From Haloplanus rubicundus (GTDB taxonomy: Archaea; Halobacteriota; Halobacteria; Halobacteriales; Haloferacaceae): a DNA stretch of 64,000 nt. Made by a program: the position numbers and the translations under genes. The stretch is taken from positions 3,286,001-3,350,000 of the forward strand of contig NZ_CP031148.1 in the NCBI RefSeq assembly GCF_003342675.1, written 5' to 3'. Numbering within the stretch: the stretch's first letter is position 1; the number at the start of each line of letters is the position of its first letter. A model generated the notes under the pieces. That model was not told the origin of the DNA and made no database searches. It worked only from the letters and a program-made list of their open reading frames with translations. Below are positions 2,675 through 43,601 of this stretch, one piece after another.

Positions 2675-2984
2675 CGTAAGGCGATTCGACAGTACTGTAA
2701 TAAATTCTGTGTGGCGAGTGAACGTTTCGGTGGCAGACGTGCGGCGCTGTCTGCTCGGTGGTAGCCACACGTACTTACCGCGACGAGCGGCGATGGATCG
2801 CAGATCCCTCGGGCAGCCGGCGCGAAGCGCCAGCGAAGAAGCGAGTCGCGGCCGTTTTTGGTCCAGCTTTTTGCGAGGAGCGGTGCGCCGAAGGCGCACC
2901 CGACGAAGTAAAAAGGTGGGAGTATGGGACCACGGCAGACTCGCTTCGCTCGTCTGCCTGCTCCCATTTTCGCTCCGCGAAAAG
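2675..2984. other. Gene-free stretch holding a cluster of short-loop hairpins
   Basis: No credible gene is seen. The stretch contains several near-perfect inverted repeats: GGCGC-GAA-GCGCC (2819-2831), GGTGCGCC-GAA-GGCGCACC (2882-2900), GGCAGAC and GTCTGCC arms at 2934-2958, and a CCCATTTTCGC arm pairing with GCGAAAAGTGGG with one bulge, which runs into the 3' end of tRNA-Pro. They lie between the 5' end of the rhomboid gene and the 3' end of the tRNA, so they could act in termination or tRNA 3' processing. Confidence 0.55.
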
Positions 2985-3055
2985 TGGGACCGCCGTGATT
3001 CGAACACGGGTCCAACGCACCCCATGCGCAGAGGATACCACTACCCCACGGTCCC
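2985..3055 (-). tRNA. tRNA-Pro (GGG anticodon)
   Basis: On the minus strand the sequence starts GGGACCG and ends CGGTCCC plus discriminator A, giving a perfect 7-bp acceptor stem. The T arm is CCGTG-TTCGAAT-CACGG. The anticodon loop ATGGGGT gives anticodon GGG, decoding proline CCC/CCU. There is no intron and CCA is not encoded. It lies upstream of and in the same orientation as the rhomboid gene, and close to the 3' end of truB. Confidence 0.93.
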
Positions 3056-30029: not shown

Positions 30030-30177
30030 CGATTCGGCAGTGACGCCCTGACACCCACCGAGAAGGCTACGGATCGCCCGTTCACAGGAACGGGTGCCAC
30101 GCTACCGGGCTGGCACCAGAAGAGCGAGCTACTAGCCGTTGTGGGGGAGTTGTCGACTCTCCGTGGTTCCCGGATGG
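30030..30177. repeat. Divergent structured repeat, copy 1 (possible non-coding RNA)
   Basis: This 148-base segment shares ordered blocks with copy 2 at 36535-36698: CGATTCGGCAGTGAC, GGCTAC, CCGTTCACA, GAACGG, CGCTACC, AGCTA-like, GTTG and GTCGACTCTC, separated by linkers that differ in length and sequence. The central hairpin here is CCCGTTC-ACAG-GAACGGG; in copy 2 it is TCCGTTC-ACAT-GAACGGA, so the outer C-G pair is replaced by T-A. This covariation indicates selection for folding. The copy lies outside the integrated element. Confidence 0.6.
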
Positions 30178-30317
30178 AGGAAAGGGGAGGGGTTCCGTCT
30201 CAGAGGGTGGGGTGCCTCGGAACCCAATCCGGAAATCGACGGGCAGCCTTGAGTATCTCGTGGCCGGGGGTTCTCGAGTATGTCCCGACAAAAATGCGGA
30301 TGAACGAGCGGGTATCG

Positions 30318-30695
30318 ACTGGAGCGAACGAGGGGGACTCAGGCGAGTCCATTGACTGGAGCGAACGACGCTGACTCGCCGGGAGTCCCGCGAGTGAGCG
30401 AAGCGAACGAGGGGGACTCAGGCGAGTCCATTGACTGGAGCGAACGACGCTGACTCGCCGGGAGTCCCGCGAGTGAGCGAAGCGAACGAGGGGGACTCAG
30501 GCGAGTCCATTGACTGGAGCGAACGACGCTGACTCGCCGGGAGTCCCGCGAGTGAGCGAAGCGAACGAGGGGGACTCAGGCGAGTCCATTGACTGGAGCG
30601 AACGACGCTGACTCGCCGGGAGTCCCGCGAGTGAGCGAAGCGAACGAGGGGGACTCAGGCGAGTCCATTGACTGGAGCGAACGAAGTGAGCGAAA
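30318..30695. repeat. 79-bp tandem repeat array carrying tRNA-Ala att-core sequences
   Basis: AGGGGGACTC recurs at 30331, 30410, 30489, 30568 and 30647, a constant 79-bp period, giving about 4.7 nearly identical copies. Each unit holds GGCGAGTCCA (first at 30342) and, in the complete units, GACTCGCCGGG (first at 30373). These match the 3' end of the tRNA-Ala(CGC) gene in opposite orientations. Within a unit GGGACTC-A-GGCGAGTC can pair with GACTCGCC-GG-GAGTCCC. The array directly abuts the distal att repeat at 30700. The period is not a multiple of three and it is not coding. Confidence 0.9.
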
Positions 30696-30699
30696 GGAA

Positions 30700-30713
30700 A
30701 TGGACTCGCCGGG
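30700..30713. repeat. Distal attachment-site repeat (att) of the integrated element
   Basis: ATGGACTCGCCGGG here is identical to 43529-43542, the 3' end of tRNA-Ala plus one flanking base. After two mismatches TTGA also matches. It lies 43 bases from the integrase stop codon, as expected for the far end of an element inserted at a tRNA 3' end. Confidence 0.85.
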
Positions 30714-30756
30714 GGTTGACCGACCGGCGCGCTCCGACCCACCGCGTTGAAGCGCA

Positions 30757-31773
30757 TCATCGGTCGCTCACCTCCCGCATGAGGCGGCGACGAACCTCCA
30801 TCTTCTCGCGCTCCGTCCGCTTGTCGTAGTGCTTTTCAAGAATCTTCTCCGTCACGTCCATCCGCTCGCTGACGACTTCGCGGGGGACGCCTTCGTTCAG
30901 GTCACGCGAGATAGCACCCTTCCGGAGCGGATGCGACGACACGCTCGACGGACACTGACTCGCCTTCTTCTGGTAGCGAGCGGCGTCGCACTCCGCGGGA
31001 TCACGGTCGTGCGGGCACCCGTTCCACACGCAGGGGCGGGTCACCCGATACACCGTCTCTCGGATGCTCGTCTTACTGAGGCGGTTGCCCTTCTTCGAGG
31101 TGACGAGTGGGTCCCGATCTCCGTCGGTCAGCTCGCGGGTGTGGGCGACGTAGTCCTCGACGACGGCCGCGACCGGCGTCCCGAGCCACACGTCGCGCTC
31201 GCCGCGCTCTTCGTTCTTCAGCGGCGTCCCCGACTCTGGACGATGCCGGAACTTCACACACGGCTCGTCCGCGTCGAAGTCCTCGACGTCGAGACCGTAC
31301 AGGGCACCCATGCGGCATCCCGTCTCCCACAGCAGCAGGAAGACGACGTGATCCCGCGACGCGTACCGGAACGTGTCGAGGCGGTTGAGAACCTTCGCGC
31401 CGCGCTCTCCACGGAGAACCGTCTCGTTCGTCTCGTCGTCGTCGGAGAGGTCGGGCATCGGAACGTCCTCCCGAAGCCCCTCCTCGACGGCGTCGATCCC
31501 CGCCCAGAAGTCGAGCGCGACGCGGAGCGTGGCGAGGTGGTTCTTCAGCGTCACGTCCTTCACGGTCCCCTTCCGGCGCTTGTAGAACCGGAATATCTCG
31601 CGGCCGCCGAGGTCGTTCAGGTTGTCGATCCCGCGGTCCTCGCAGAACTCGACGAACGGCGCGAGACGGTACTTCTTGTTCTCGACGGTGTGCTCCGCGT
31701 CCTCGCCGACGCGGCTTTCGAGATACCACTCGACGCCCTCTTCGGGCGACAGTGGTTCGAGGTCGTCGCTCAC
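30757..31773 (-). CDS. Tyrosine recombinase / integrase of the element
   Basis: A 338-aa integrase. An N-terminal SAM-like core-binding domain (about 10-105) precedes the catalytic domain with Arg154 (TGCRMGAL), His281 and Arg284 (SHPLRKGA), and the nucleophile Tyr316 (EKHYDKRT). Four cysteines between residues 248 and 274, just before the HxxR box, suggest an inserted zinc knuckle, known in other haloarchaeal phage-type integrases. It sits next to the distal att site and its ATG overlaps the stop of the upstream zinc-motif gene, so the two are coupled. Its expected target is the tRNA-Ala(CGC) 3' end. Confidence 0.92.
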
Positions 31774-32834
31774 TGTCCAGCCACCTCCTCGAATCGCGCG
31801 TCGTGACTCGGCTCGACGCGCCCGTGGGCGTCGACGGCGCGGGCGGCCCGGTGCCGGTGCCGCGTCAGCGCCTCGAACGGACAGTCCGGACAGACGACGT
31901 GGTAGCGACCACCGCCGTCGGTCACGAGTCGGCCGCGTTCGTCACCGTCGTCGGCGAGCGGCGGCTCCTCGCTACGCAGGTCGACGAGTTCGGACTTGTC
32001 CCACCGCGCCGGTTCGAGGTCGTTGGCCCGACACGTCTCACAGCCGAATCGAGTCGCGTCCACGTCGACCGAGTGGTGGCCACGCGGGCACACCAGCGGG
32101 TCGATGGGCTGTCCCTCGGGGATACGTCCGCCGTCGGTCTCGACGCCGTCGCCGCGGTCGACGTCGTCGGCCACGCGTTCGGCGTAGTCGTCGAGCACGT
32201 CGGCGACGGCGGCCTCGATCTCCCGCTGGAGCCGCGTCGGGTGCGGGTAGTCCGTCGACGCGCCCGACACCTCGATGCTCACCTCGCCGCTGAGGTGGTT
32301 CATGCCGTCGCCGGGCGTCAGGATCTGATTCCCCGAAGCGCCGCCGAAGTTGATCGACGACGTGACGCGCCGCCGGCCGGCCGACACGTCGCGGCCGCCG
32401 TCGGTCTCGACGCCGTCGCCGCGGTCCACGTCGTCACCGTCGACGTAGTGCTCGCGCGCCGTCTCGATCACGTCGGAGCGCGCGTATCCGACCGTGTCGG
32501 CCGCCTCGAACAGCGCGGCCGTCACGACGCCGAGCGCGTTCTCCGCTGGCAGGCCGGTGTTGTTCACCGCGTCCTCGAAGGCGGCCGAACAGCGCGCGTA
32601 GAGCATCGCCTCGGCCGGTGTCGAGTCGTCGACTTCCGCCTCGATCTCCTCGACCATCTCGTCCACGCGGATCGAAAACTCGTCCTCGCCGCCGTCGGTC
32701 CGGATCGTCGCGCACTTGCGACAGATAGGCTGGCGCGTCGGCGCGTCGATCCCGTCGGCCGGGTCACCACAGACCACGCAGTCGCCGTCGTCAGGTTGAT
32801 TTCCGCTCGGTCCGTTTCCGGTCGTGCGGGACAT
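31770..32834 (-). CDS. Element protein with zinc motifs, coupled to the integrase
   Basis: A 354-aa acidic protein. I start it at [13 protein letters not shown] because a TTAAG box about 33 bases upstream fits a leaderless message; a longer start exists at 32873. The N-terminal finger has [10 protein letters not shown] and CRKCATIR. The middle is helical ([20 protein letters not shown]) and a second pair of zinc motifs lies near the C-terminus ([26 protein letters not shown]). The peptide [15 protein letters not shown] occurs twice. The gene overlaps the integrase start, as accessory genes do in SNJ2-type integrase operons; a role in recombination or its control is inferred. Confidence 0.65.
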
Positions 32835-32981
32835 TCGTCCCGTGGTAGGTTCCGACAGCATCGGCTTAAGCACGGAACCGTAACGCGGGCGGTGGTCTCA
32901 GCACCGTCCGCGCTACCGACCAACCTCGAAGTGCCTACAGAGTCTCGCGTCGGTTCCGCAGGTCTACTGTTGAGCGTTCGG

Positions 32982-32993
32982 AACATGAATGTT
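32982..32993. promoter_or_regulatory. Candidate operator palindrome upstream of the repressor-like genes
   Basis: AACATGAATGTT is a 5-bp inverted repeat with a two-base centre, in the 247-base gap between the divergent zinc-motif gene and the first winged-helix gene. It is a plausible binding site for one of the two regulators downstream; there is no second copy to confirm it. Confidence 0.3.
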
Positions 32994-33082
32994 ACGACGA
33001 CGTATGAGTATCCTAACGTGCCACCAACGCTAATGAGACTGTTGACAAGTGGGTGGGGAAGATTTGTGGTAGTTAAGAACAA

Positions 33083-33403
33083 ATGCGCCACTCCGGTGAC
33101 TGGATGACATTGGTTGATGACAGAGTCTTGGAATACATTCGAGAGAACGAATCGGGGTCTCCAACAGAGATGATGAAGGAGGGACCGATTCACTACTCCC
33201 GACAGCACATCGCCCGCAGGTGCCGGAAACTCGCCGATGAGGGACTCCTCAATCACCTTGGAAACGGCGTCTACGTCCTCACCGACGACGGCGAGGCGTA
33301 CCTCGACGGCAAACTCGACACGCAGAACTGGGTCCGCCTCGACGAGAACGGTGGCGCGGCGGCGAACGGTGTCGGCGACGCGGGTGAGGAACAGGAGGGC
33401 TAA
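33083..33403 (+). CDS. Winged-helix regulator, PhiH1-repressor-like (106 aa)
   Basis: A winged helix-turn-helix domain occupies residues 10-80: DDRVLEYIRENESGSPTEMM, the recognition helix region SRQHIARRCRKLADEGLL, and the wing NGVYVLTDDGEAYLDG. This matches the family of the phage PhiH repressor common in haloarchaeal proviruses. The C-terminal 25 residues are Gly/Ala/Glu-rich. A second gene of the same type follows three bases later, so they probably form a regulatory pair controlling the element. Confidence 0.8.
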   Translation: MRHSGDWMTLVDDRVLEYIRENESGSPTEMMKEGPIHYSRQHIARRCRKLADEGLLNHLGNGVYVLTDDGEAYLDGKLDTQNWVRLDENGGAAANGVGDAGEEQEG

Positions 33404-33406
33404 CTC

Positions 33407-33682
33407 GTGCGTCGACCGGCGAAGTGGATGCACCAACTCGACGAGCGCATCCTCGAACATCTTGCCGATGACGGATGGGCGTCGCCCGGAACGATGAGCC
33501 GCCACTTTCGGTTTACCGCGTCGGAGGATCGGATCGAAGAGCGGTGTGAGGAACTACGCGACGCGGGGCTTCTCGCCCCGATCTATCGCGGCGCATCGAT
33601 GTACGAATTGACGACGCTCGGCTATCTGTATCTCGCGGGGGAACTCGATGCCGACAGTCTGCCACGGAGGACGGTGGGATGA
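33407..33682 (+). CDS. Second winged-helix regulator, PhiH1-repressor-like (91 aa)
   Basis: Starts at a GTG three bases after the preceding gene. The sequence MHQLDERILEHLADDGWASP, then EDRIEERCEELRDAGLLAPI and the wing YELTTLGYLYLAGELDA has the same fold and residue pattern as its neighbour, pointing to tandem duplication and divergence. A DNA-binding repressor role is inferred. The next gene starts two bases after its stop. Confidence 0.78.
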   Translation: MRRPAKWMHQLDERILEHLADDGWASPGTMSRHFRFTASEDRIEERCEELRDAGLLAPIYRGASMYELTTLGYLYLAGELDADSLPRRTVG

Positions 33683-33683
33683 T

Positions 33684-33983
33684 ATGAGCGACGACGAAGA
33701 GGATTCGATAGAGAAGTACCGAACCGCGTTCGTCTTGCAGATGTTCAAGTTGGGCGCGGTATTCGGTGCGTTCCTCGGTGAAACGATCACGCTATGGATC
33801 GCACTGGGTCTAGCGGCGTTTCTGGATCACATCGTCGGTCTGTCGTTCGTCATGACGATCCGGGGGTTCAGAATCCCAGTTTTCGCGGCTGTTCAGGCGA
33901 TAATCGCCGTAGAGATTTTCCGTGGTGCGGCCGATATATACATGCAAGGGAATCCCGAGTTTCGGGGGATCGAAGAAGAATGA
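33684..33983 (+). CDS. Small membrane protein of the element (99 aa)
   Basis: An acidic cytosolic N-terminus (MSDDEEDSIEKYRTAF) leads into two hydrophobic helices, about residues 28-52 (GAVFGAFLGETITLWIALGL) and 55-88. The C-terminus is short and charged. No family is recognised. Its stop overlaps the ATG of the next gene, and it starts two bases after the repressor-like gene, so all four genes from 33083 are likely one operon. Confidence 0.65.
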   Translation: MSDDEEDSIEKYRTAFVLQMFKLGAVFGAFLGETITLWIALGLAAFLDHIVGLSFVMTIRGFRIPVFAAVQAIIAVEIFRGAADIYMQGNPEFRGIEEE

Positions 33984-34498
33984 CAGAATGGGTGCTTCAC
34001 TGGCCGGAAGCCGGCGTGAAGAACGGCGAGTTCGTCGACGACTCTTCCGAGTGGATCGACGAGGACCCGTTCGTTCGGAACGTCGTGTTAGTTGCGGGGC
34101 TGTTGATGAGGGTCATTTCTGCCATAATCCTCACCGGACTTTCGGTCCTGACTGCGGTCGTTCTCTTGTCGAACGGCGTCAGTATCGGAGGCCTATCCGT
34201 GCTCGGGATGATCGTCGTTTCGGCGGCTGGGATTTCGGCGGCAGATATGGTACTCGACCGGGTCGCCCTCGCGCCGATCCGGTGGGTGTCGGCCGTGTTA
34301 GCGGTCACGATGGTTCTACCGCCGGCAATCGTCTATGCGTGGATTCGACGACGGACACACAAGGTCGAGCATCCGGAGCGGCTTGCGTTCTATGCCGGTG
34401 ACGAGCGGACGCTCCTCAGACTGTACGGTGAGCTTCTTCCTGGCATTCGACCACGTAAACCGCGGCTTGCAGACGGTGGGACAAGGGAAGAAGACTGA
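33980..34498 (+). CDS. Membrane protein of the element (172 aa)
   Basis: A soluble N-terminus of about 30 residues (MTEWVLHWPEAGVKNGEF) is followed by three hydrophobic segments: about 35-62 (VVLVAGLLMRVISAIILTGL), 68-90 (GGLSVLGMIVVSAAGISAAD) and 98-118 (WVSAVLAVTMVLPPAIVYAW). The C-terminal 50 residues are charged. No family recognised. It overlaps the preceding gene by four bases (ATGA), implying coupled translation and perhaps a two-protein membrane complex. Confidence 0.65.
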   Translation: MTEWVLHWPEAGVKNGEFVDDSSEWIDEDPFVRNVVLVAGLLMRVISAIILTGLSVLTAVVLLSNGVSIGGLSVLGMIVVSAAGISAADMVLDRVALAPIRWVSAVLAVTMVLPPAIVYAWIRRRTHKVEHPERLAFYAGDERTLLRLYGELLPGIRPRKPRLADGGTREED

Positions 34499-34955
34499 TT
34501 AGGGCCAGTCGACTTTTGCCCGAGCGCGGACCTTCACTTTCCTTGAGTCAGGACCAAGATACGCCTGTCGATACGTTTCTTAGCCTTGTGAAGCGCTCAC
34601 GGCGAACAGCGGGTATTTTTAACGCCCAGCACTCAAGAATTGAGTGAAGAACGGCCCGCCAGTACTGAAGCACTGCGGATTCCGTTCTTCCGCACTCACG
34701 CGAGTGGGTGAGGATCGCCCTCAAGACAATCAGTGACAGCCAAACGGAGGTGATTACCGTCATCGAGTTAAGCGTCTCAGCAGACCCGACAACGATGCTC
34801 GTGCTTGTGGTCCTGATCCGTCAGGCCAAGGACCTACGCATCACTGTCGGTGAGTAGGTACGGAGGCCCGAGCAATCAGCCGGGCCCGCCAGTACTGAAG
34901 CACCTGTAAGTAGAGCCGACTCGGTGAAAAACTCTTTCTTTGTGAGGCCAACCGA
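34499..34955. other. Intergenic stretch with a 20-bp direct repeat and short palindromes
   Basis: GCCCGCCAGTACTGAAGCAC occurs at 34654-34673 and again at 34884-34903. ACTCAA-GAA-TTGAGT (34631-34645) is a short hairpin. A possible 49-codon frame runs from GTG 34708 to TAG 34857 between the repeats (hydrophobic centre, MLVLVVLI) and a 71-codon frame runs opposite; neither is convincing. The repeat flanks about 210 bases directly beside a small tyrosine recombinase and may be its crossover site. Confidence 0.55.
34654..34903. repeat. 20-bp direct repeat pair beside the small recombinase
   Basis: Two identical 20-base copies (34654-34673, 34884-34903) are separated by 210 bases. A chance perfect 20-mer pair at this spacing is negligible. 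Candidate recombination sites for the recombinase gene whose stop lies at 34956, or remnants of a target duplication. Confidence 0.6.
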
Positions 34956-35540
34956 TTAGAGCCACCCAACCTTCTCCCTTCCCCGCTGCTGCGCATCCAG
35001 ACTGTACGCCCCGAGGTAGTGCTCTCGAAACGTCTCCCAGTCCTCCCAGCCGCCCCACTCCATCACCAGTCCCGGCTCGACTTCGCGCTCGACGAGTAGC
35101 GTCCCCCAAGTACGCCGGAGATCGTGCGGACCGAGGTAGGTCCAGCCGTCGTCACCGGTGTCGGCGTACAGCCGCTCGCCCGCTGTAGTGACCCACCGCC
35201 GGATCGTCCGCGTCGAGCGGTCGACGAGCGGCGTGTCGGCCGCCTCGTCGCGCACGTCGGCGAGCGCCCGCATGGACGCCGCGAGATCGGTCGGCACGGG
35301 CGTCTCTCGGTACTTCGAGCCCTTCCCGTCCTGCACGCGGACGAACGGGCCGACGGGCGTGTCGACAACGTCGGCGGGTGTCACGTCGGCCGCCTCGGCG
35401 ACGCGGAGTCCGCACCGAGCGAGTAGCCCGAGCGCTACTGTCTGTGTCGTCCCGTCCGCCTCGTCGAGCAGGGCGTCGACCTCCTCGGGGCGGAGCCATA
35501 CCTTCCTACCGTCGTGGTCGTCGTGATCCTCCATCTTCAT
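34956..35540 (-). CDS. Second tyrosine recombinase, catalytic domain only
   Basis: A 194-aa protein containing just the XerC/D-like catalytic domain: Arg46 (CGLRVAEA), Lys75 (GKGSKYRE), His139 and Arg142 (PHDLRRTW), Trp165 in place of the second histidine, and nucleophile Tyr175 (REHYLG). The N-terminal core-binding domain is absent and the length is about 60 percent of a full integrase. It lies next to the 20-bp direct repeat pair. It could resolve multimers, invert a segment, or be a truncated older integrase; all key residues are retained. Confidence 0.88.
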   Translation of the reverse strand: MKMEDHDDHDGRKVWLRPEEVDALLDEADGTTQTVALGLLARCGLRVAEAADVTPADVVDTPVGPFVRVQDGKGSKYRETPVPTDLAASMRALADVRDEAADTPLVDRSTRTIRRWVTTAGERLYADTGDDGWTYLGPHDLRRTWGTLLVEREVEPGLVMEWGGWEDWETFREHYLGAYSLDAQQRGREKVGWL

Positions 35541-35848
35541 CGCGTCCGATTACCTCACAAATCAGCCAAAGAACCGTGAGCATCTAGTACTTTCGACCGT
35601 GATCGCGCCGGCGTCGAGGCGGATCGTGTCTGACTTTCCATCCTTCTCGGACGCCAATCTCTGATTCTCCGTGGAAACCGAAACTACACCGCATAATATA
35701 GTTTCACCATATCGCCGTAATCCACACGAGTGTTGTTATTTTTATTATCCTTGGATGCGTATCGGAGATCTATCGAATTCAAGGCTATTGCGCTATCATA
35801 TAAATACACTAACTTTTAACAGGTTTCACGACTATACCTGCTTCCGAG
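35541..35848. other. AT-rich intergenic stretch
   Basis: No gene is seen. GC content falls sharply after about 35680. The 10-mer TTCTCGGACG occurs at 35644, followed by CCAATCTCTGATTCTCC. TATA-like sequences near 35800-35820 probably serve the gene at 35849. The composition shift marks the start of the element's low-GC segment. Confidence 0.5.
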
Positions 35849-36142
35849 ATGGGACTCTTCAGTAGCTCAAATAAAAAGAAAAAGAAGTACAAATGTGAGG
35901 TCACTAAGAGGAATAATAAGATGAGTATGTACGGCGGGACTAAGGAGGTAGTGAAGAAGACCTGTGGGAAAAGGCACGGACCCAAAGTCGACAAAGACGA
36001 TCTCCCTGACAGGGGATACCACAGGAAGCAATGCGAGAAGTGTAAAGAAAAGACCCGAAAGAAAGGCCTAAATTCGGGTCGTATTGAGGATGGGTCGAAA
36101 GGCGGATCAGGTTCCGCTAGCCGTTCTGGCGACCTTTTGTAA
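35849..36142 (+). CDS. Small, strongly basic Cys-containing protein (97 aa)
   Basis: The protein begins MGLFSSSNKKKKKYKCEVTK and is rich in Lys and Arg, very unlike the acidic haloarchaeal proteome. Four cysteines (16, 39, 62 and 65; TCGKRHG and QCEKCKEK) could bind one zinc ion. The C-terminal 25 residues are Gly/Ser-rich. Base composition is low in GC. Nucleic-acid binding is the natural inference; no family is recognised. It stands alone between recombinase 2 and the zinc microprotein. Confidence 0.6.
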   Translation: MGLFSSSNKKKKKYKCEVTKRNNKMSMYGGTKEVVKKTCGKRHGPKVDKDDLPDRGYHRKQCEKCKEKTRKKGLNSGRIEDGSKGGSGSASRSGDLL

Positions 36143-36196
36143 CCCATTCACTGATTCTCGGACGCCAACCTCCGACTTCACGCTCCTTCTCGGTCA

Positions 36197-36370
36197 CTAC
36201 ATGCGAAAACGCAAAAGCGCGAGTCGAGCATCTGGAACTAGGCCCATGCCCTGTCGCCAAGATTGTACGTGATCGAGTGAGTTCCATCCACAGTCAGGAC
36301 AAACAATCTGTGTATCCCAATCGAACGGGTGGTGGCATCTACAACAGCCCGAATCCTTCCACGCTGTCAT
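36197..36370 (-). CDS. Zinc-finger microprotein (57 aa)
   Basis: The frame from ATG 36370 to TAG 36197 encodes MTAWKDSGCCRCHHPFDWDT, then QIVCPDCGWNSLDHVQSW and a Leu/Arg-rich tail. Two CxxC knuckles (CCRC and CPDC) about 16 residues apart form a classic single zinc ribbon, a very common layout among haloarchaeal small proteins. The cysteine spacing makes it unlikely to be a chance frame. Its start is about 165 bases from structured repeat copy 2. Function unknown. Confidence 0.65.
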   Translation of the reverse strand: MTAWKDSGCCRCHHPFDWDTQIVCPDCGWNSLDHVQSWRQGMGLVPDARLALLRFRM

Positions 36371-36742
36371 ACTTTTGTGTCATTGATATTGAGTAATAAG
36401 GGTTTTCTATCAACACCAATCAACACGCGCCAAAACCCACTCTCCGCCAATCTCTGATTATCCGGTCTTCTCGAAAACAAGTGGTTGCTTGAGTGTAGAA
36501 TCGGACACGAGGGTCAAAACTCCACCCCCACTGTCGATTCGGCAGTGACCACCGTGGAATCCCTCTGAGATAGAGGGGGCTACTAATCGTCCGTTCACAT
36601 GAACGGATACCGCGCTACCAGTCAACACTATCCATGCCGTACCAGGTATTAGCTGTTGCTATAGAGGAGATAGTCGACTCTCTATGATTCTCGGACGGCA
36701 TCTTATCGGAGCCACAACAGCGTCCAGCAATCCAAATGCAAT
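36371..36742. other. Intergenic stretch holding structured repeat copy 2
   Basis: No gene is seen. The left part (36371-36534) is AT-rich and contains CGCCAATCTCTGATTATCCG, related to the sequences following the dispersed 10-mer. The right part is the 164-base structured repeat. The stretch ends at the stop of the 265-aa helical protein. Confidence 0.5.
36535..36698. repeat. Divergent structured repeat, copy 2 (possible non-coding RNA)
   Basis: Shares the ordered conserved blocks of copy 1 (30030-30177). Predicted pairings include CACTG/CAGTG around the loop TCGATTCGG, CCCTCT-GAGAT-AGAGGG, TCCGTTC-ACAT-GAACGGA, and ATAGAG/CTCTAT around GTCGACT. It ends in the dispersed 10-mer TTCTCGGACG. There is no adjacent transposase; by analogy with haloarchaeal transposon-associated RNAs it might be an orphan guide-like or palindromic element. 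Confidence 0.6.
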
Positions 36743-37540
36743 TTATAGGAACGAGGACGGCTGATATAGGTCCATATCTTCTCTAAGTAATGTTGGTGGG
36801 GGGTGGTTAGTGAACGACCAAATATCTACTATAATTGGTTCTACAGACAGCCGAATTTCTTTCGCTGCCTGAGTATCACTAAATGTTCGCACTAGTTGTG
36901 CGAGAATTCCAAACCCAAAGAACGCCGCAAACTGTAAGCAGTCCTTTTCTACAGTTGAAGAATATCGGCCGGGGACTAGTGCCGAACTGGTCGTGTGGGG
37001 GTGCATCGCTCTATTACTCAGATGGTCATACAGCCTTTTGTCACGCTCACCGAGTTTTCCACGCTCATTACCAAGAAGATCTCCTAAATCATCCTCCTCT
37101 TCTAATCGATACTCTGGCCCAGGTTGTCCCCTCGCCCGAATTTCGTACCGAGTCTTTTCCCACAACTCTGCGGCCTTCTGCTTATTTCTGTTAAGCCCTT
37201 TCAACAGTAGATAGCAGTCCATCAGATAACGGATGCGTCCATAAGCTCCGTCCCACGCCTGATTTTCCACCAAAATAGAAAGTGCTCGAAGTGCGTTCCC
37301 TGCCCGGTGGAACGTAGTCAATTGATACATATGCCGGTCAGTCACGTACGCACCACCGCTCGCATACAGATGCTCAGCGATTTCGCTAAAATTCGCAGCA
37401 ACCGTCCGAACAAGTCGTCCCAGCCACTTATTACGTGCAGGACGCCGCGAATCTACTGGATCAAGTTGGTACTCACCATCCAGAACACGCACGGTCTGTG
37501 CGATCGGGAACTGAAGATTTGAGCAGTTGATTGTATCCAA
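36743..37540 (-). CDS. All-alpha hypothetical protein resembling DUF5677/HEPN-like families (265 aa)
   Basis: The protein is predominantly helical with no signal or clear membrane span. Family-like features are a run RAGNALRALSILVENQAWDG followed by GRIRYLMDCYLLLKGL, and a later YDHLSNRAMHPHT, which resembles the helix pair and Y-x-x-L-S-x-x-x-HP motif of DUF5677-type proteins. Those are often near defence or toxin genes. GC content is low. It is divergent from the HEPN-like gene at 37668 with 127 bases between starts. Defence or toxin function is inference only. Confidence 0.55.
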   Translation of the reverse strand: MDTINCSNLQFPIAQTVRVLDGEYQLDPVDSRRPARNKWLGRLVRTVAANFSEIAEHLYASGGAYVTDRHMYQLTTFHRAGNALRALSILVENQAWDGAYGRIRYLMDCYLLLKGLNRNKQKAAELWEKTRYEIRARGQPGPEYRLEEEDDLGDLLGNERGKLGERDKRLYDHLSNRAMHPHTTSSALVPGRYSSTVEKDCLQFAAFFGFGILAQLVRTFSDTQAAKEIRLSVEPIIVDIWSFTNHPPPTLLREDMDLYQPSSFL

Positions 37541-37667
37541 ATGATATCAGATTAGTTGTATATACCTTAGGGAGATTGACCGCTACTGTATCCAGATTTG
37601 AGAATATTCTCGGACGTGGATAGCCGCACACAATAAATAAGACTAGAGATATAGTCTAACTGAAAAT

Positions 37668-38291
37668 ATGAATGCTGACACCGACAACATCAGCTACGCT
37701 AGAACCCAATTAAGCGAGGCTCGTCGGCGTCTAGCGTCCGTTCGTGAGAGAATATCCGATATAGAAAGACAAGAAGTGGTCGGAGCTGTTGATCAACGGG
37801 ACAACGAACTCGCTGTAGGAGAGAACATTAAGATTGCTGAGGGTGAAGACATCGAGAAAATACCGGAAAAGCATCGACAATACGTAACTCTCTCTCGACG
37901 TGACAAGGAGGTGGTGAACATCGAACCACATATTCAAAATATTATTATCGACTGTCAAATGTCGATTGAATTGTCTGTTAAATCGATGTTCAAGGCAGTA
38001 GATCAAGAATTTGATTACTCCCATGGTATTGGGTTTGAGTCACATAATACGCAAGATTTCAATAGAAAAGTTCCAGCCGACTTTCCAAGACGTGAAGATA
38101 TCGTTCGCGCGATCTTCCTAACACAACTGTGGGAAAGATTCTATGAACTTGCGAAATACGGTGCTCCGGAATTGAATGTCGGCCCTTCCGTGATTTTCGA
38201 GATTGACGACGGCGAACGAGCGCTTAACGATGCAGCTTTTTGTGTGGAATTGGCAGAAGAATTTATTGATTATGTCGATGAGAGTGAATAG
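37668..38291 (+). CDS. HEPN-like domain protein (207 aa)
   Basis: Residues 1-50 are helical and charged (coiled-coil-like). From about residue 85 the pattern IIIDCQMSIELSVKSMFKAV, then EFDYSHGIGFESH, matches the first helices and the T/S-H-G/D-L-type turn of HEPN domains. The C-terminal FYELAKYGAPEL and RALNDAAFCVELAEEFIDYV match the closing helices. A clear Rx4-6H ribonuclease motif is not seen, so it may be a non-catalytic or atypical HEPN. GC content is low. Divergent partner at 36743. Confidence 0.65.
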   Translation: MNADTDNISYARTQLSEARRRLASVRERISDIERQEVVGAVDQRDNELAVGENIKIAEGEDIEKIPEKHRQYVTLSRRDKEVVNIEPHIQNIIIDCQMSIELSVKSMFKAVDQEFDYSHGIGFESHNTQDFNRKVPADFPRREDIVRAIFLTQLWERFYELAKYGAPELNVGPSVIFEIDDGERALNDAAFCVELAEEFIDYVDESE

Positions 38292-38481
38292 AATTTCATT
38301 TGCGATCAGTCTATGAGATTCTGCCAGACGAATAGTGGACCAGGTGTTGATTCTCCGCATCGAATACATTCGTACCCGTCAACGAGACCATAGCGTGACG
38401 GCACTTGGGCCGACTCGAAGCGATGACCAACGACCGAACACCACAGCCGCGACGGGAGCCAGCGAAGGAACGCACCGACTG

Positions 38482-38589
38482 TCACGCTGGCAACGCACCT
38501 CCTCTACGCGGCGGGCGGCCACAGACGGGACACTCGTCTTCGCTGTCGGCGGCTGACCATTCGATTCGGCAGAATGGACAGTACGTCAT
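38482..38589 (-). CDS. Zinc-knuckle microprotein (35 aa)
   Basis: The frame encodes MTYCPFCRIEWSAADSEDEC, then PVCGRPPRRGGALPA, with two CPxC knuckles (CPFC, CPVC) 16 residues apart, enough for one zinc site. Its ATG overlaps the TGA of the upstream 91-aa gene (TGATG), a coupling signal that strongly supports translation. Such tiny CPxCG proteins are widespread in haloarchaea and many affect growth or stress responses, but the role of this one is unknown. Confidence 0.7.
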   Translation of the reverse strand: MTYCPFCRIEWSAADSEDECPVCGRPPRRGGALPA

Positions 38590-38864
38590 CAGAGATTGCC
38601 CTCGTAGAAGTTGCTCGCCCAGTGGTCGTCGGCCTCTTCGACAGCGTGTTTCGGAGACACTAGGTACGTATTCGTTTCCGCGTCGTATCCGAGTACTAAG
38701 GTCGTCCCGCCCTCAATACCGTCGGCAACTGCTTGTGTTCGAGGGAGTAACGCGTAGAGGCTCTCGTTGCGCTCGTTGGCTGTGCAGTCGCCGAGTGGGG
38801 TAATCGGCGCGTCCGGGTCCGACAGTTCTCTCAACGCCCGGCGGCGGGCACTACTTCCACTCAT
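38589..38864 (-). CDS. Small hypothetical protein (91 aa)
   Basis: A soluble protein starting MSGSSARRRALRELSDPDAP. The body (ALLPRTQAVADGIEGGTTLV, LGYDAETNTYLVSPKHAVEE) suggests a small alpha/beta domain. A TATA box (TATTTAATT on the minus strand near 38891-38899) lies about 30 bases before the ATG, fitting leaderless transcription. It is first in a two-gene operon with the 35-aa zinc-knuckle protein. Repeated TTCACCAA sites lie just beyond the promoter. No family recognised. Confidence 0.6.
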   Translation of the reverse strand: MSGSSARRRALRELSDPDAPITPLGDCTANERNESLYALLPRTQAVADGIEGGTTLVLGYDAETNTYLVSPKHAVEEADDHWASNFYEGNL

Positions 38865-38908
38865 CTCACTGGTTGTTCGATCGCACAGGTAATTAAATAC
38901 CCAAGCGA

Positions 38909-38940
38909 TTCACCAAGTAGTTCACCAAATAGATGGTGAA
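38909..38940. promoter_or_regulatory. Candidate operator: TTCACCAA repeats between divergent operons
   Basis: TTCACCAA occurs at 38909-38916 and 38921-38928, 12 bases apart, followed by the inverted form ATGGTGAA (one mismatch) at 38933-38940. The cluster lies in the 118-base gap between the divergent starts at 38864 and 38983, next to the TATA box of the leftward genes. It is a plausible site for one of the element's winged-helix or RHH regulators. Confidence 0.5.
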
Positions 38941-38982
38941 CGACAACCGGGTTATCCCCCTCACCCCCTTGCGACCGGCCGT

Positions 38983-39192
38983 ATGCTGGATCCTATTTCA
39001 GCAATCGCAGGTGTAGCAATCACCGGAGTCACCACCTCGACACTGTACGCCGCGTACCTCCGCGGCGCTCGGGACGCAACCAGTCCCGCTCACATCGTCG
39101 ATCTCCGTGAGGTGGAGAACTACCACGCCGAGAGTGCCCGCGCCGAGGCGATCCGCGAATCCGTCGAGGCGACCACGGAGGGATCGGCATGA
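38983..39192 (+). CDS. Coupled operon gene 1: small single-span membrane protein (69 aa)
   Basis: A hydrophobic helix at about residues 5-27 (ISAIAGVAITGVTTSTLYAA) is followed by a positively charged turn and a soluble tail with VDLREVENYHAESARAEAIR. The N-terminus is too short for a cleaved signal, so a membrane anchor is likely. It is the first of eight tightly coupled genes; its stop overlaps the next start (ATGA). No family recognised. Confidence 0.65.
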   Translation: MLDPISAIAGVAITGVTTSTLYAAYLRGARDATSPAHIVDLREVENYHAESARAEAIRESVEATTEGSA

Positions 39193-39446
39193 ACGCCGAC
39201 GAGCCGGACGCTCCTGGTGACGCTGTCGACGGCGACCAGGAGGCGAGCGGCGAGGTCAAGGACGTCGAGGTGACGACCGTCCACCGGAAGGACGGTGTCG
39301 ACCAGATCACCGAGCGGTCGGTGCTGCTCGACACGGGCGAGGAGGAAATCGTCGAGACGTTCGAAGTCGTCGACGGCGAGCACGAGTACCTCGGCGACGG
39401 CGATCCCGACCAGCGCGCCCACGACGCCCTGGAGGCGCGATTCTGA
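39189..39446 (+). CDS. Coupled operon gene 2: small acidic soluble protein (85 aa)
   Basis: The N-terminal 25 residues are disordered and acidic (MNADEPDAPGDAVDGDQEAS). The remainder has alternating strands (KDVEVTTVHRKDGVDQITER, SVLLDTGEEEIVETFEVVDG), probably one small beta domain. No membrane span or cysteine. Coupled to gene 1 by ATGA and to gene 3 by TGATG. No family recognised. Confidence 0.6.
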   Translation: MNADEPDAPGDAVDGDQEASGEVKDVEVTTVHRKDGVDQITERSVLLDTGEEEIVETFEVVDGEHEYLGDGDPDQRAHDALEARF

Positions 39447-39679
39447 TGGACCCGATGACGCCGCCGGAGTTCGAGCATTCGGCCGCGTCGGAGGTGTTCG
39501 AGGACTACGACCAGTACCTCGATCACCACCGCGCGGAGTCCGAAGGCCGGACGGCGCGGGCGGCCTCGTTCGCCTCCTACAACTTCGACCTCCAAACGGG
39601 CATCCTGATCGCACTCATGGCCGGCGCCGTCCTGGTGGCGGTGTTTGAGGACGGTGATACCTTCGAGACCTTCCGATGA
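39446..39679 (+). CDS. Coupled operon gene 3: small membrane protein (77 aa)
   Basis: A soluble helical N-terminus (EVFEDYDQYLDHHRAESEGR) precedes one hydrophobic segment at about residues 51-67 (TGILIALMAGAVLVAVF) and a short acidic tail. The topology and size resemble small virion or envelope proteins, but that is only a size analogy. Coupled to both neighbours by overlapping stop/start codons. Confidence 0.6.
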   Translation: MDPMTPPEFEHSAASEVFEDYDQYLDHHRAESEGRTARAASFASYNFDLQTGILIALMAGAVLVAVFEDGDTFETFR

Positions 39680-40545
39680 GCATCACCGTCGAGTTTGGAT
39701 CGAAAGCTGCGGCCGACCAGTACCGCGACGACTACGAAGAGTACATCTGTCCCGTCGACGACGACGCCCGACTCAAGACCGTCGCGTTCGTGAGCGACAC
39801 GCCCGAGTGGCTGCTCGACCAAGCCCGCCTCGACGCCGAGGAGGGCCGCGCCGAGCGAGCCGCCAGCGCCGGACAGGCAGAACTCACCGACGGCGAACGC
39901 GACCGGATCGACTTCTCGAAGGGGCGGGCGAACGTTCCCCACGCTCGCGCCGTGAAGGGCATCGCCGCCGATCACGGCGTCGACGACTGGCTCGCCTACT
40001 ACGATCCCACCCTCACCGTCGACGAACACCGTGGCGTGATGGAGCAGGCACGAGAGGAAGGGGGCGGCCAACGTCTCGACGCCAACGAGGGCCGGCAAGC
40101 CGCCCGTGCCCGCGACGCCGCCCGCGCCCAGCAGTCAAGCGAGTGCGACCACGCTGCTGACCACTGCGAACACGGCGATCCCGAGGCCTGCGAGTTCCTG
40201 AAGAACGCCTGCGGGTACGGCGAGGACGAAGTCGCGTCGATCCTCGACGAGGACGACGCCGGCGACGACGAGGAAATCACCGGGAAGGCCGCGGGAGCGC
40301 TCGGGCGAGCGTGGGGCGGATACAAGGGTGCGATCACGCGCCTCGACCGGGAGATCGAGGACGTCGTCGAGAGCAAACGCGAGGCCGAGGGCGCCGCCGC
40401 GGCGATCAACGCGATCCGTCGCGACCACGGTCAAGAGCCGATGGAGTTCGAGCGCCTCGAAGAGCTGTCCGACCGCCTCGAAGGCGTCGGTGACGTCGCC
40501 CACGACGCCGAGGGCCACGTCGAACTGATGGAACGATTCTCATGA
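39676..40545 (+). CDS. Coupled operon gene 4: acidic soluble protein with a Cys/His cluster (289 aa)
   Basis: Largest protein of the operon. Residues 1-150 form a mixed domain (MSITVEFGSKAAADQYRDDY) and a helical Ala/Arg-rich segment. A cluster CDHAADHCEHGDPEACEFLK with a following NACGYGEDEV lies at about 155-185 and could bind metal. The C-terminal 90 residues are helical and coiled-coil-like (ITRLDREIEDVVESKREAEG). No signal or membrane span. No family recognised; a structural or scaffold-like role is possible. ATGA overlaps join it to genes 3 and 5. Confidence 0.6.
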   Translation: MSITVEFGSKAAADQYRDDYEEYICPVDDDARLKTVAFVSDTPEWLLDQARLDAEEGRAERAASAGQAELTDGERDRIDFSKGRANVPHARAVKGIAADHGVDDWLAYYDPTLTVDEHRGVMEQAREEGGGQRLDANEGRQAARARDAARAQQSSECDHAADHCEHGDPEACEFLKNACGYGEDEVASILDEDDAGDDEEITGKAAGALGRAWGGYKGAITRLDREIEDVVESKREAEGAAAAINAIRRDHGQEPMEFERLEELSDRLEGVGDVAHDAEGHVELMERFS

Positions 40546-41231
40546 CCGGATACGACTGCCCCGTAGAGGGGTGCGACTACCAAGCCGACCAGATCGACCA
40601 GCTTCGAGGGCACATCAACGGGTCCCCTGACCACCCCTCGTGGGGGGACGTCAAGGGGGGCCTCGGCGCTGGTAGCGAACTGGTAGACCAGAACGACCAG
40701 GCAGAGACCACCCCCTCCAAGGGGAGTAAATCGCCCGATGAGAACGAGGACGACGACCAGCCGGACGACCTCCCTGAAGGGGCCGATGAAGGGGGGAACG
40801 AGGGGGGGAGCGCCCCCTCTGACGCTGGTAGTGAGGACGACGACCAGCCAAACGACCAGAACGACCAGCAAGATACCCCCATGCCAACGGACACCGAACT
40901 CCAGCGTCAGCGCCGTGTTCAGGGCGCTCAACCAGACGAATTGGGTAGTGACGAAACGACCAGCCAAGAGACCAGCAGTACCACCCCCTCAAAGGGGGGT
41001 AACGAGGGGGGTAGCGCGGCTGGTCTGCTCCCTGCCATCGACACGTCGACGATCATCATGCTGGTCGCCCTCCTGGCGGTGGCCCTCATCCTCTATCGCC
41101 TCGTGTCCGACAGCGGGGGCGGCGGGGGTGCCGAAGGGGCCGACGGGGCCGACGAAGACGTCGACGACCAGGAGGACGAGGACGTCGAGGAACTGCCGAA
41201 CTTCGACGCGACCGAACTGGAGGAGATCTAA
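40542..41231 (+). CDS. Coupled operon gene 5: C2H2-finger protein with disordered stalk and membrane anchor (229 aa)
   Basis: An N-terminal C2H2-like finger (YDCPVEGCDYQADQIDQLRG, then HINGSPDH) precedes about 130 residues of low-complexity Asp/Glu/Gln/Asn/Ser/Gly sequence with internal repeats. A single hydrophobic helix follows at about 168-188 (STIIMLVALLAVALILYRLV), then a glycine run and an acidic tail. The DNA of the linker is rich in repeated G and C tracts. This looks like a tethered nucleic-acid or protein-binding head on a flexible stalk. No family recognised. Confidence 0.6.
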   Translation: MTGYDCPVEGCDYQADQIDQLRGHINGSPDHPSWGDVKGGLGAGSELVDQNDQAETTPSKGSKSPDENEDDDQPDDLPEGADEGGNEGGSAPSDAGSEDDDQPNDQNDQQDTPMPTDTELQRQRRVQGAQPDELGSDETTSQETSSTTPSKGGNEGGSAAGLLPAIDTSTIIMLVALLAVALILYRLVSDSGGGGGAEGADGADEDVDDQEDEDVEELPNFDATELEEI

Positions 41232-41747
41232 ATGGCTGCCGAGACCGACGAGATCGACGAGCAGGACGCACCGGACGAAGGGGACGACGAAGAGGAGAAG
41301 CCCCCCATCGAAGACGAGGAGTTCGCGGATCTGAGCGCCGTCGCCGACGAGATCGAGGAGTCCGCCGGCGCCGGTTCCGAGGACGACGAGGAGGACGTCG
41401 ACGACCAGGAGGACAGCGCCGAGCAGGAGGCGAGCAGTGAGGACCACACTCGAGGAAGCCCTCGCGGTCGAGGGTGGGGCGACATGTACGTCGCGTCGGT
41501 CACCTCGGGACTGAACGCGGTGATCGACGAGCACGGCAAGGACGGTGCCGAGCCGCTCGACGAGCAGATGGCCCGCGACCTCCACCTCGACGAGGCGTTC
41601 GAGGAAGTGATGGAGAAGCGCGGCCGGGCCGACATGCCCCCGGAACAAGAGCTACTGATGGGGACGCTCATCCTCGCCGGCACGGTGGTCCTCTCGAAGA
41701 CCGACCTGCCGGCCCAGGCCCTCTCGGAGGTGGGCGAGGATGCTTGA
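41232..41747 (+). CDS. Coupled operon gene 6: acidic protein with C-terminal hydrophobic segment (171 aa)
   Basis: The ATG directly follows the TAA of gene 5. Residues 1-75 are disordered and almost wholly acidic (MAAETDEIDEQDAPDEGDDE). The C-terminal half is helical (DMYVASVTSGLNAVIDEHGK, LHLDEAFEEVMEKRGRADMP) and ends with ELLMGTLILAGTVVLSK, a possible membrane-inserted or buried helix. No family recognised. It overlaps gene 7 by eight bases. Confidence 0.6.
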   Translation: MAAETDEIDEQDAPDEGDDEEEKPPIEDEEFADLSAVADEIEESAGAGSEDDEEDVDDQEDSAEQEASSEDHTRGSPRGRGWGDMYVASVTSGLNAVIDEHGKDGAEPLDEQMARDLHLDEAFEEVMEKRGRADMPPEQELLMGTLILAGTVVLSKTDLPAQALSEVGEDA

Positions 41748-41994
41748 CGGGATGAAAGAGCGGATGATGCAAGAAGCGATGGGTCAGATCACTCCCTCGG
41801 AGACGCCTATCGCGAAGGTCCTCGCTGACTCCATTTCGAACATCGAGGCCCGGCAGATGGCCGCAGTGACCCGCCTCGCCGAGGCCGACGACGTCGACGA
41901 TGATCGGCTCGCACACGAACTCGACGTCGACGAGCGCGCCGTCGAGTCGCTGAAGCCCGAAGTCATCTACCGCCGGGAGGGCGACGATGGGTGA
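41740..41994 (+). CDS. Coupled operon gene 7: small helical protein (84 aa)
   Basis: A soluble helical protein: a Met-rich amphipathic N-terminus (MLDGMKERMMQEAMGQI), a middle helix (SNIEARQMAAVTRLAEADDV), and a C-terminal segment DDRLAHELDVDERAVESLKP, which could be a helix-turn-helix-like hairpin. No membrane span. It overlaps genes 6 and 8 by eight bases each. No family recognised. Confidence 0.6.
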   Translation: MLDGMKERMMQEAMGQITPSETPIAKVLADSISNIEARQMAAVTRLAEADDVDDDRLAHELDVDERAVESLKPEVIYRREGDDG

Positions 41995-43529: not shown

Positions 43530-43601
43530 TGGACTCGCCGGGATTTGAACCCGGGGCCTCTTCCTTGCGAAGGAAGCGATCTGCCACTGATCTACGAGCC
43601 C
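43530..43601 (-). tRNA. tRNA-Ala (CGC anticodon), integration target
   Basis: The minus strand starts GGGCTCG and ends CGAGTCC plus discriminator A (acceptor stem with one G-U pair). The anticodon arm CTTCC-TTCGCAA-GGAAG gives CGC, decoding alanine GCG. The T arm is CCGGG-TTCAAAT-CCCGG. The gene is complete. Its 3' end, with one flanking base, is duplicated at 30700-30713. Confidence 0.95.

Follow-up and report, generated by a model that had tools for sequence, protein, structure and literature searches.

The window analysed here, a stretch of 64,000 nucleotides from Haloplanus rubicundus, carries two divergent copies of a repeat, one inside an integrated provirus and one just outside it. The locus raises the question of what the repeat is, how it moves, and whether its fold matters as RNA or as DNA.

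The repeat family and its structure

Copy 1 (c1) occupies 30030..30177 and copy 2 (c2) about 36502..36696, with a conserved core at 36558-36669, both on the plus strand. Alignment of the two (30030-30177 with 36535-36698, both plus) bears out the claim of the sequence-only reading that blocks are shared in the same order, along the full length, between unrelated linkers. The hairpin change from CCCGTTC/GAACGGG to TCCGTTC/GAACGGA, with pairing kept, had been described exactly. Two details are revised. In c2 the shared region extends from about 36502 to 36695, with a recombination core site at its end. The local hairpin 1 (CCCTCT/AGAGGG) is absent from c1, a diverged structured element in which hairpin 2 is intact, hairpin 1 is lost and the 3' end is a degenerate core site, GTCGACTCTCCGTGGTTCCCGGAT, on the plus strand.

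A covariance model (R1), built from c2-c7 with copy 1 left out, recovered copy 1 in a search of the whole genome with 44.3 bits (E=2e-9). A second model (R2), whose training rows include both c1 and c2, found c1 at 1e-17 and c2 at 9e-31 in the window and nothing further that was credible. The modelling had been proposed as a check by the sequence-only reading, and the absence of further homologues, which it named as a refutation, is contradicted by six more copies, eight in all (c1-c8). Two of the six lie on the same contig as the window and were found with R1 (c3, 1019856-1019967, and c4, 1193852-1193962, both minus), two in genomes of the same genus, one in a genome from a different genus of the same family and one on a Salinirubellus plasmid; c5, c6 and c8 are in genomes G006, G007 and G037, and c7 is on plasmid NZ_CP147842. 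The family is small, with four of the eight copies in one genome, and the element occurs in four of 170 genomes of the taxonomic family. Order-wide and class-wide genome samples yielded no copies beyond those known, and a core-pattern scan of a collection of 84,980 species genomes, from which close records are possibly absent, gave only two bacterial matches, read as chance. Weak model matches in G324 and G360, both within the 16S-23S spacer, were rejected, those in G214 and G091 were discarded as unconvincing, and the pattern GATTCGGCAGTGAC gave unspecific matches in viral contigs; tighter patterns gave one unrelated contig.

The eight-row alignment has 14 pairs with 99.0% of cells paired, and two hairpins are kept. 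Double changes affect six pairs in 11 cells, against a mean of 3.5 after shuffling and 0-1 when the alignment was slid. Fitting the alignment to the model biases these counts in the model's favour, and the slid controls are nonetheless clear. The structure is conserved with compensatory changes, as expected of a structured RNA. Hairpin 1 of c2 (approximately 36561..36580, plus) is CCCTCT/AGAGGG, which becomes CCCCT/AGGGG, CCTCC/GGAGG or CCCCTG/CAGGGG among the copies. Hairpin 2 (approximately 36591..36611, plus) is TCCGTTC/GAACGGA in c2, and its variants are CCCGTTC/GAACGGG, CCCATTC/GAATGGG and GCCCAC/GTGGGC. Unpaired conserved blocks follow both, GGCTAC 3' of hairpin 1 and ACCGCGCTACCAGTC 3' of hairpin 2. 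In most copies two outer pairs are G-U, and other copies have C-G or G-C at these positions; this variation speaks for the plus strand. Folding of single sequences is unremarkable (z of -0.65 and -2.0), so that the support for the structure is comparative. No family of Rfam 15 was matched at gathering or permissive thresholds. A protein-coding remnant was ruled out, because no ORF spans the copies consistently and the indels within and near the hairpins have lengths that three does not divide. Judged by sequence comparison, the repeats are copies of a rare, new non-coding element, structured and about 150-200 nt long, whose two-hairpin core is conserved.

The provirus, its small recombinase and the putative cassettes

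The limits of the provirus are a 13-nt match to a tRNA-Ala 3' end (30701-30713) and the tRNA-Ala itself (43530-43601); the integrase gene (30757-31773, minus) adjoins the 13-nt fragment. C2 lies inside and c1 about 520 bp beyond the boundary, so that the placement of one copy within and one outside an integrated element holds with these limits. A conserved viral block starts near 38320, and block 38321-41900 is 87% identical to a block beside c3, where a packaging-type ATPase is additionally encoded. Just beyond the provirus there is a perfect tandem array (30323-30684, 4.6 copies of a 79-bp unit), whose units match the tRNA-Ala attachment sequence over 12 nt. A truncated c5 lies beside a tRNA-Pro (L137:3701-3772); no such element adjoins the corresponding tRNA-Pro of the window (2984-3055).

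It had been stated that no transposase is adjacent to the repeats. This is true, but a tyrosine recombinase gene (34956..35540, minus) is located about 1 kb away, between the integrase and the conserved block. The 194-aa protein consists of the catalytic domain only and has all six catalytic residues (R46, K76, H139, R142, W165 and Y175); the integron integrase model TIGR02249 gives it 33.7 bits, the cut-off being 265. The gene and 110 bp upstream of it are 89-94% identical in G010, G001 (two loci) and G006, and the recombinase of the c6 locus is only 32% identical. A relative of the small recombinase is also found on NZ_CP100406, an 18-kb circular plasmid of Haloarcula marina, with a longer integrase and small regulators in a layout similar to that of the provirus.

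When the recombinase region was compared by BLAST with the four relatives, similarity ended at 35650-35653, inside a site termed S1 (35628..35652, plus, GTCTGACTTTCCATCCTTCTCGGAC, with its right arm from 35644). S1 is composed of GTCTGACTTTCC-ATCC-TTCTCGGAC, its arms being conserved and its spacer variable among relatives. Because all four relatives diverge within it, S1 is taken, from this comparison, as a putative attI-like insertion site beside the recombinase. The core-site consensus appears to be about GTCYGAYTYTC as the left arm, a spacer of 4-6 nt, and TTCTCGGWC as the right arm. The window contains six occurrences of TTCTCGGWC, and five of these are on the plus strand within 35644-37615 (at 35644, 36155, 36187, 36688 and 37607). 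The shorter TTCTCGG is present five times on the plus strand and not at all on the minus strand over 2.8 kb, where 0.18 occurrences are expected. After S1, the right arms are TTCTCGGAC at 36155..36163, TTCTCGGTC at 36187..36195, a diverged TTCTCGAAAAC at 36468, TTCTCGGAC at 36688..36696, which ends the c2 cassette and has the left arm GTCGACTCTC, and TTCTCGGAC at 37607..37615, all on the plus strand. At several inner sites the left arms are degenerate, and the spacers differ from site to site.

The sites split the region into short intervals, most of which hold one ORF each, or the element. The inferred cassettes, all on the plus strand, are 35644..36154, with a 97-aa ORF (35849-36142, plus); 36187..36467, with a 57-aa CxxC-containing ORF (36197-36370, minus); 36468..36687, which runs from one right arm to the next and contains c2 without a gene; 36688..37606, with a 265-aa ORF (36743-37540, minus) that weakly matches DUF5677; and 37607..38320, with a 207-aa ORF (37668-38291, plus) that weakly matches HEPN. 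A spacer interval of 32 bp separates the sites at 36155 and 36187. PADLOC gave no match for the genes of the last two cassettes. Similarity between c3 and c5 begins at most 7 nt from a TTCTCG site on the 5' side, and that between c2 and c3 stops inside the 3' site. Two arrays of G006 have a 400-bp cassette in common (93% identity) amid different neighbours; it starts at TTCTCGGTC and stops close to the following site. Within the genus, DNA-level relatives exist elsewhere for the structured cassette of the window and for none of the others. Structure, family, association with the recombinase and its sites, and modular boundaries are observed, and the best interpretation of c2, c3 and c5, and on sequence grounds of c1 and c6, is a mobile non-coding cassette. 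Comparative evidence supports the earlier picture of a folded, mobile and non-coding family. At most other recombinase loci the right arm does not recur within about 1.3 kb, and the arrays may therefore be confined to this genus.

Function of the element and competing readings

The two-hairpin core is retained in three copies beyond recognisable arrays, and no consistent gene lies downstream of the copies. Together with the conserved unpaired motifs and the G-U variation on the plus strand, this makes the element likeliest to act as RNA, with a novel ncRNA as the leading functional candidate. A role as an upstream leader was rejected, since the orientation of the downstream gene varies among copies. 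Pairing of the GCGCTACCAG motif with tRNA D-loops was rejected because no tRNA among the matching loci carries it, and complementarity to part of 16S rRNA because it is short and inconsistent. In the proposed mechanism, the small tyrosine recombinase would recombine the short core sites, and single-gene cassettes and the non-coding cassette would be gained and lost beside its gene in an integron-like manner. In proviruses of this haloarchaeal genus the element would move as a gene-less cassette; it would be transcribed and would be a small structured RNA acting in trans, carried as cassette cargo. We regard this joint reading, a gene-less cassette moved by the recombinase beside whose gene it lies, with a likely trans-acting RNA as its cargo, as moderately probable.

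The fold might instead matter as DNA, with the element serving, like the attC of integrons, as a folded recombination site or enhancer; the core site would then pair with the region of the first hairpin in single-stranded DNA. In c1-c3 the conserved 3' end is indeed a core site, and the GGCTAC region pairs with it with a probability of 0.7-0.86 in c3 and partly in c2; GGCTAC of c1, however, pairs elsewhere, c4, c7 and c8, for which no core sites were recognised, have both local hairpins, and the ORF cassettes of the same array have no such structure. This is unlikely, and the most serious of the alternatives.

Many homologues of the recombinase have two sites, one located at the start codon and the other some 90 nt further upstream, a placement that would suit autoregulation. 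The arms of the paired sites change together (GTCCG/CGGAC, TTCCG/CGGAA, GACCG/CGGTC, TGTCC/GGACA, CTTCC/GGAAG) and are recombinase-specific, in favour of the cassette reading; 17 of 34 homologues score at most 4, the null being 2.6%. Automated finding of inverted repeats was noisy and became usable once arms were compared across the two sites of each locus. The core sites could be operators of the recombinase only, and the divergence in S1 ordinary provirus mosaicism, but the sites recur at interval ends in one orientation and the shared cassette has its boundaries at sites, and we think this rather improbable. Upstream of the recombinase start codon at another locus (L173, G003), the left arm of the start-codon site appears, as read by eye, fused to the cassette right arm TTCTCGGTC, as if site-specific recombination had made a deletion.

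Slightly less probable still is a signal belonging to the virus, for regulation, replication or packaging, in the form of structured DNA or RNA that lies in a variable region by chance. C2 and c3 do occupy the same place, between the recombinase and the structural genes of related proviruses. Against this, the element is missing from closely related proviruses of G010 and G001, c1 lies beyond the provirus, c7 is plasmid-borne, and c4 occupies another chromosomal position, with no recombinase seen near it.

A palindrome-containing non-autonomous element, another earlier candidate, does not fit as a MITE, since the genome holds four copies rather than many and no inverted repeats of at least 12 nt were found within 600 bp around c1 and c2. 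Least tenable is an orphan transposon end or omega-RNA of the IS200/IS605-TnpB type, the TnpB/IS1341-class RNA that the sequence-only reading had suggested comparing with tnpB genes: hairpin 1 (e.g. CCTCCGTGAGGAGG) superficially resembles tnpB right ends, but none of the 37 tnpB-like (TnpB zinc-ribbon-type) matches in this genome (G000, contigs C2 and C3) adjoins a copy, the nearest being about 9 kb from c4, and a model search of 30 tnpB loci with E up to 10 gave no match. Many of the 37 lie at 1.18-1.41 Mb of C2.

Comparison with known systems

The arrangement resembles an integron in that a tyrosine recombinase stands beside an insertion site, followed by mostly one-ORF cassettes split by sites of the same orientation, and in that the recombinase is weakly similar to integron integrase models. 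It differs in that the recombinase is a catalytic domain only, far below the integron-integrase cut-off, and in that the boundary sites appear to be short inverted-arm cores, whereas those of integrons are folded attC sites; the inner array sites read as short cores, conserved structure is found in the c2 cassette only, and the c3 core site can fold into a stem. The present system, unlike integrons, sits in haloarchaeal proviruses. Archaeal integrons have been reported (PMC9668308), in a main text from which words in Halobacter- and haloarch- are absent.

Archaeal tyrosine recombinase families with only PF00589 include the HSTV2-like and fam30 groups, the HSTV2 family being restricted to Halobacteria (PMC8371274). 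They resemble the small recombinase in domain make-up, a single Phage_integrase domain, but the cited sections of that paper mention neither cassette arrays nor paired upstream sites, and the word cassette is absent from them. In the mosaic haloviral loci called ViPREs (PMC3622292), haloviral genes are likewise reassorted in chromosomal loci beside a tRNA-Ala and an integrase, but 'gene cassettes' is used loosely and no recombinase-site array is described in the portion cited. A search of one literature collection found no description of the present combination of recombinase, sites and cassettes.

We tentatively propose, as an idea somewhat short of probable, that haloarchaeal proviruses contain an independent integron-like cassette system with a minimal tyrosine recombinase and short sites, in which the cassette that recurs most in this genus would be a new structured RNA and not a protein gene. 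The rules for the sites are defined well enough to be tested in a laboratory haloarchaeon. If true, a non-coding RNA would be spreading as a cassette, and archaeal viruses would have a second, separately evolved route to gene-cassette arrays, with a recombinase of fewer than 200 residues.
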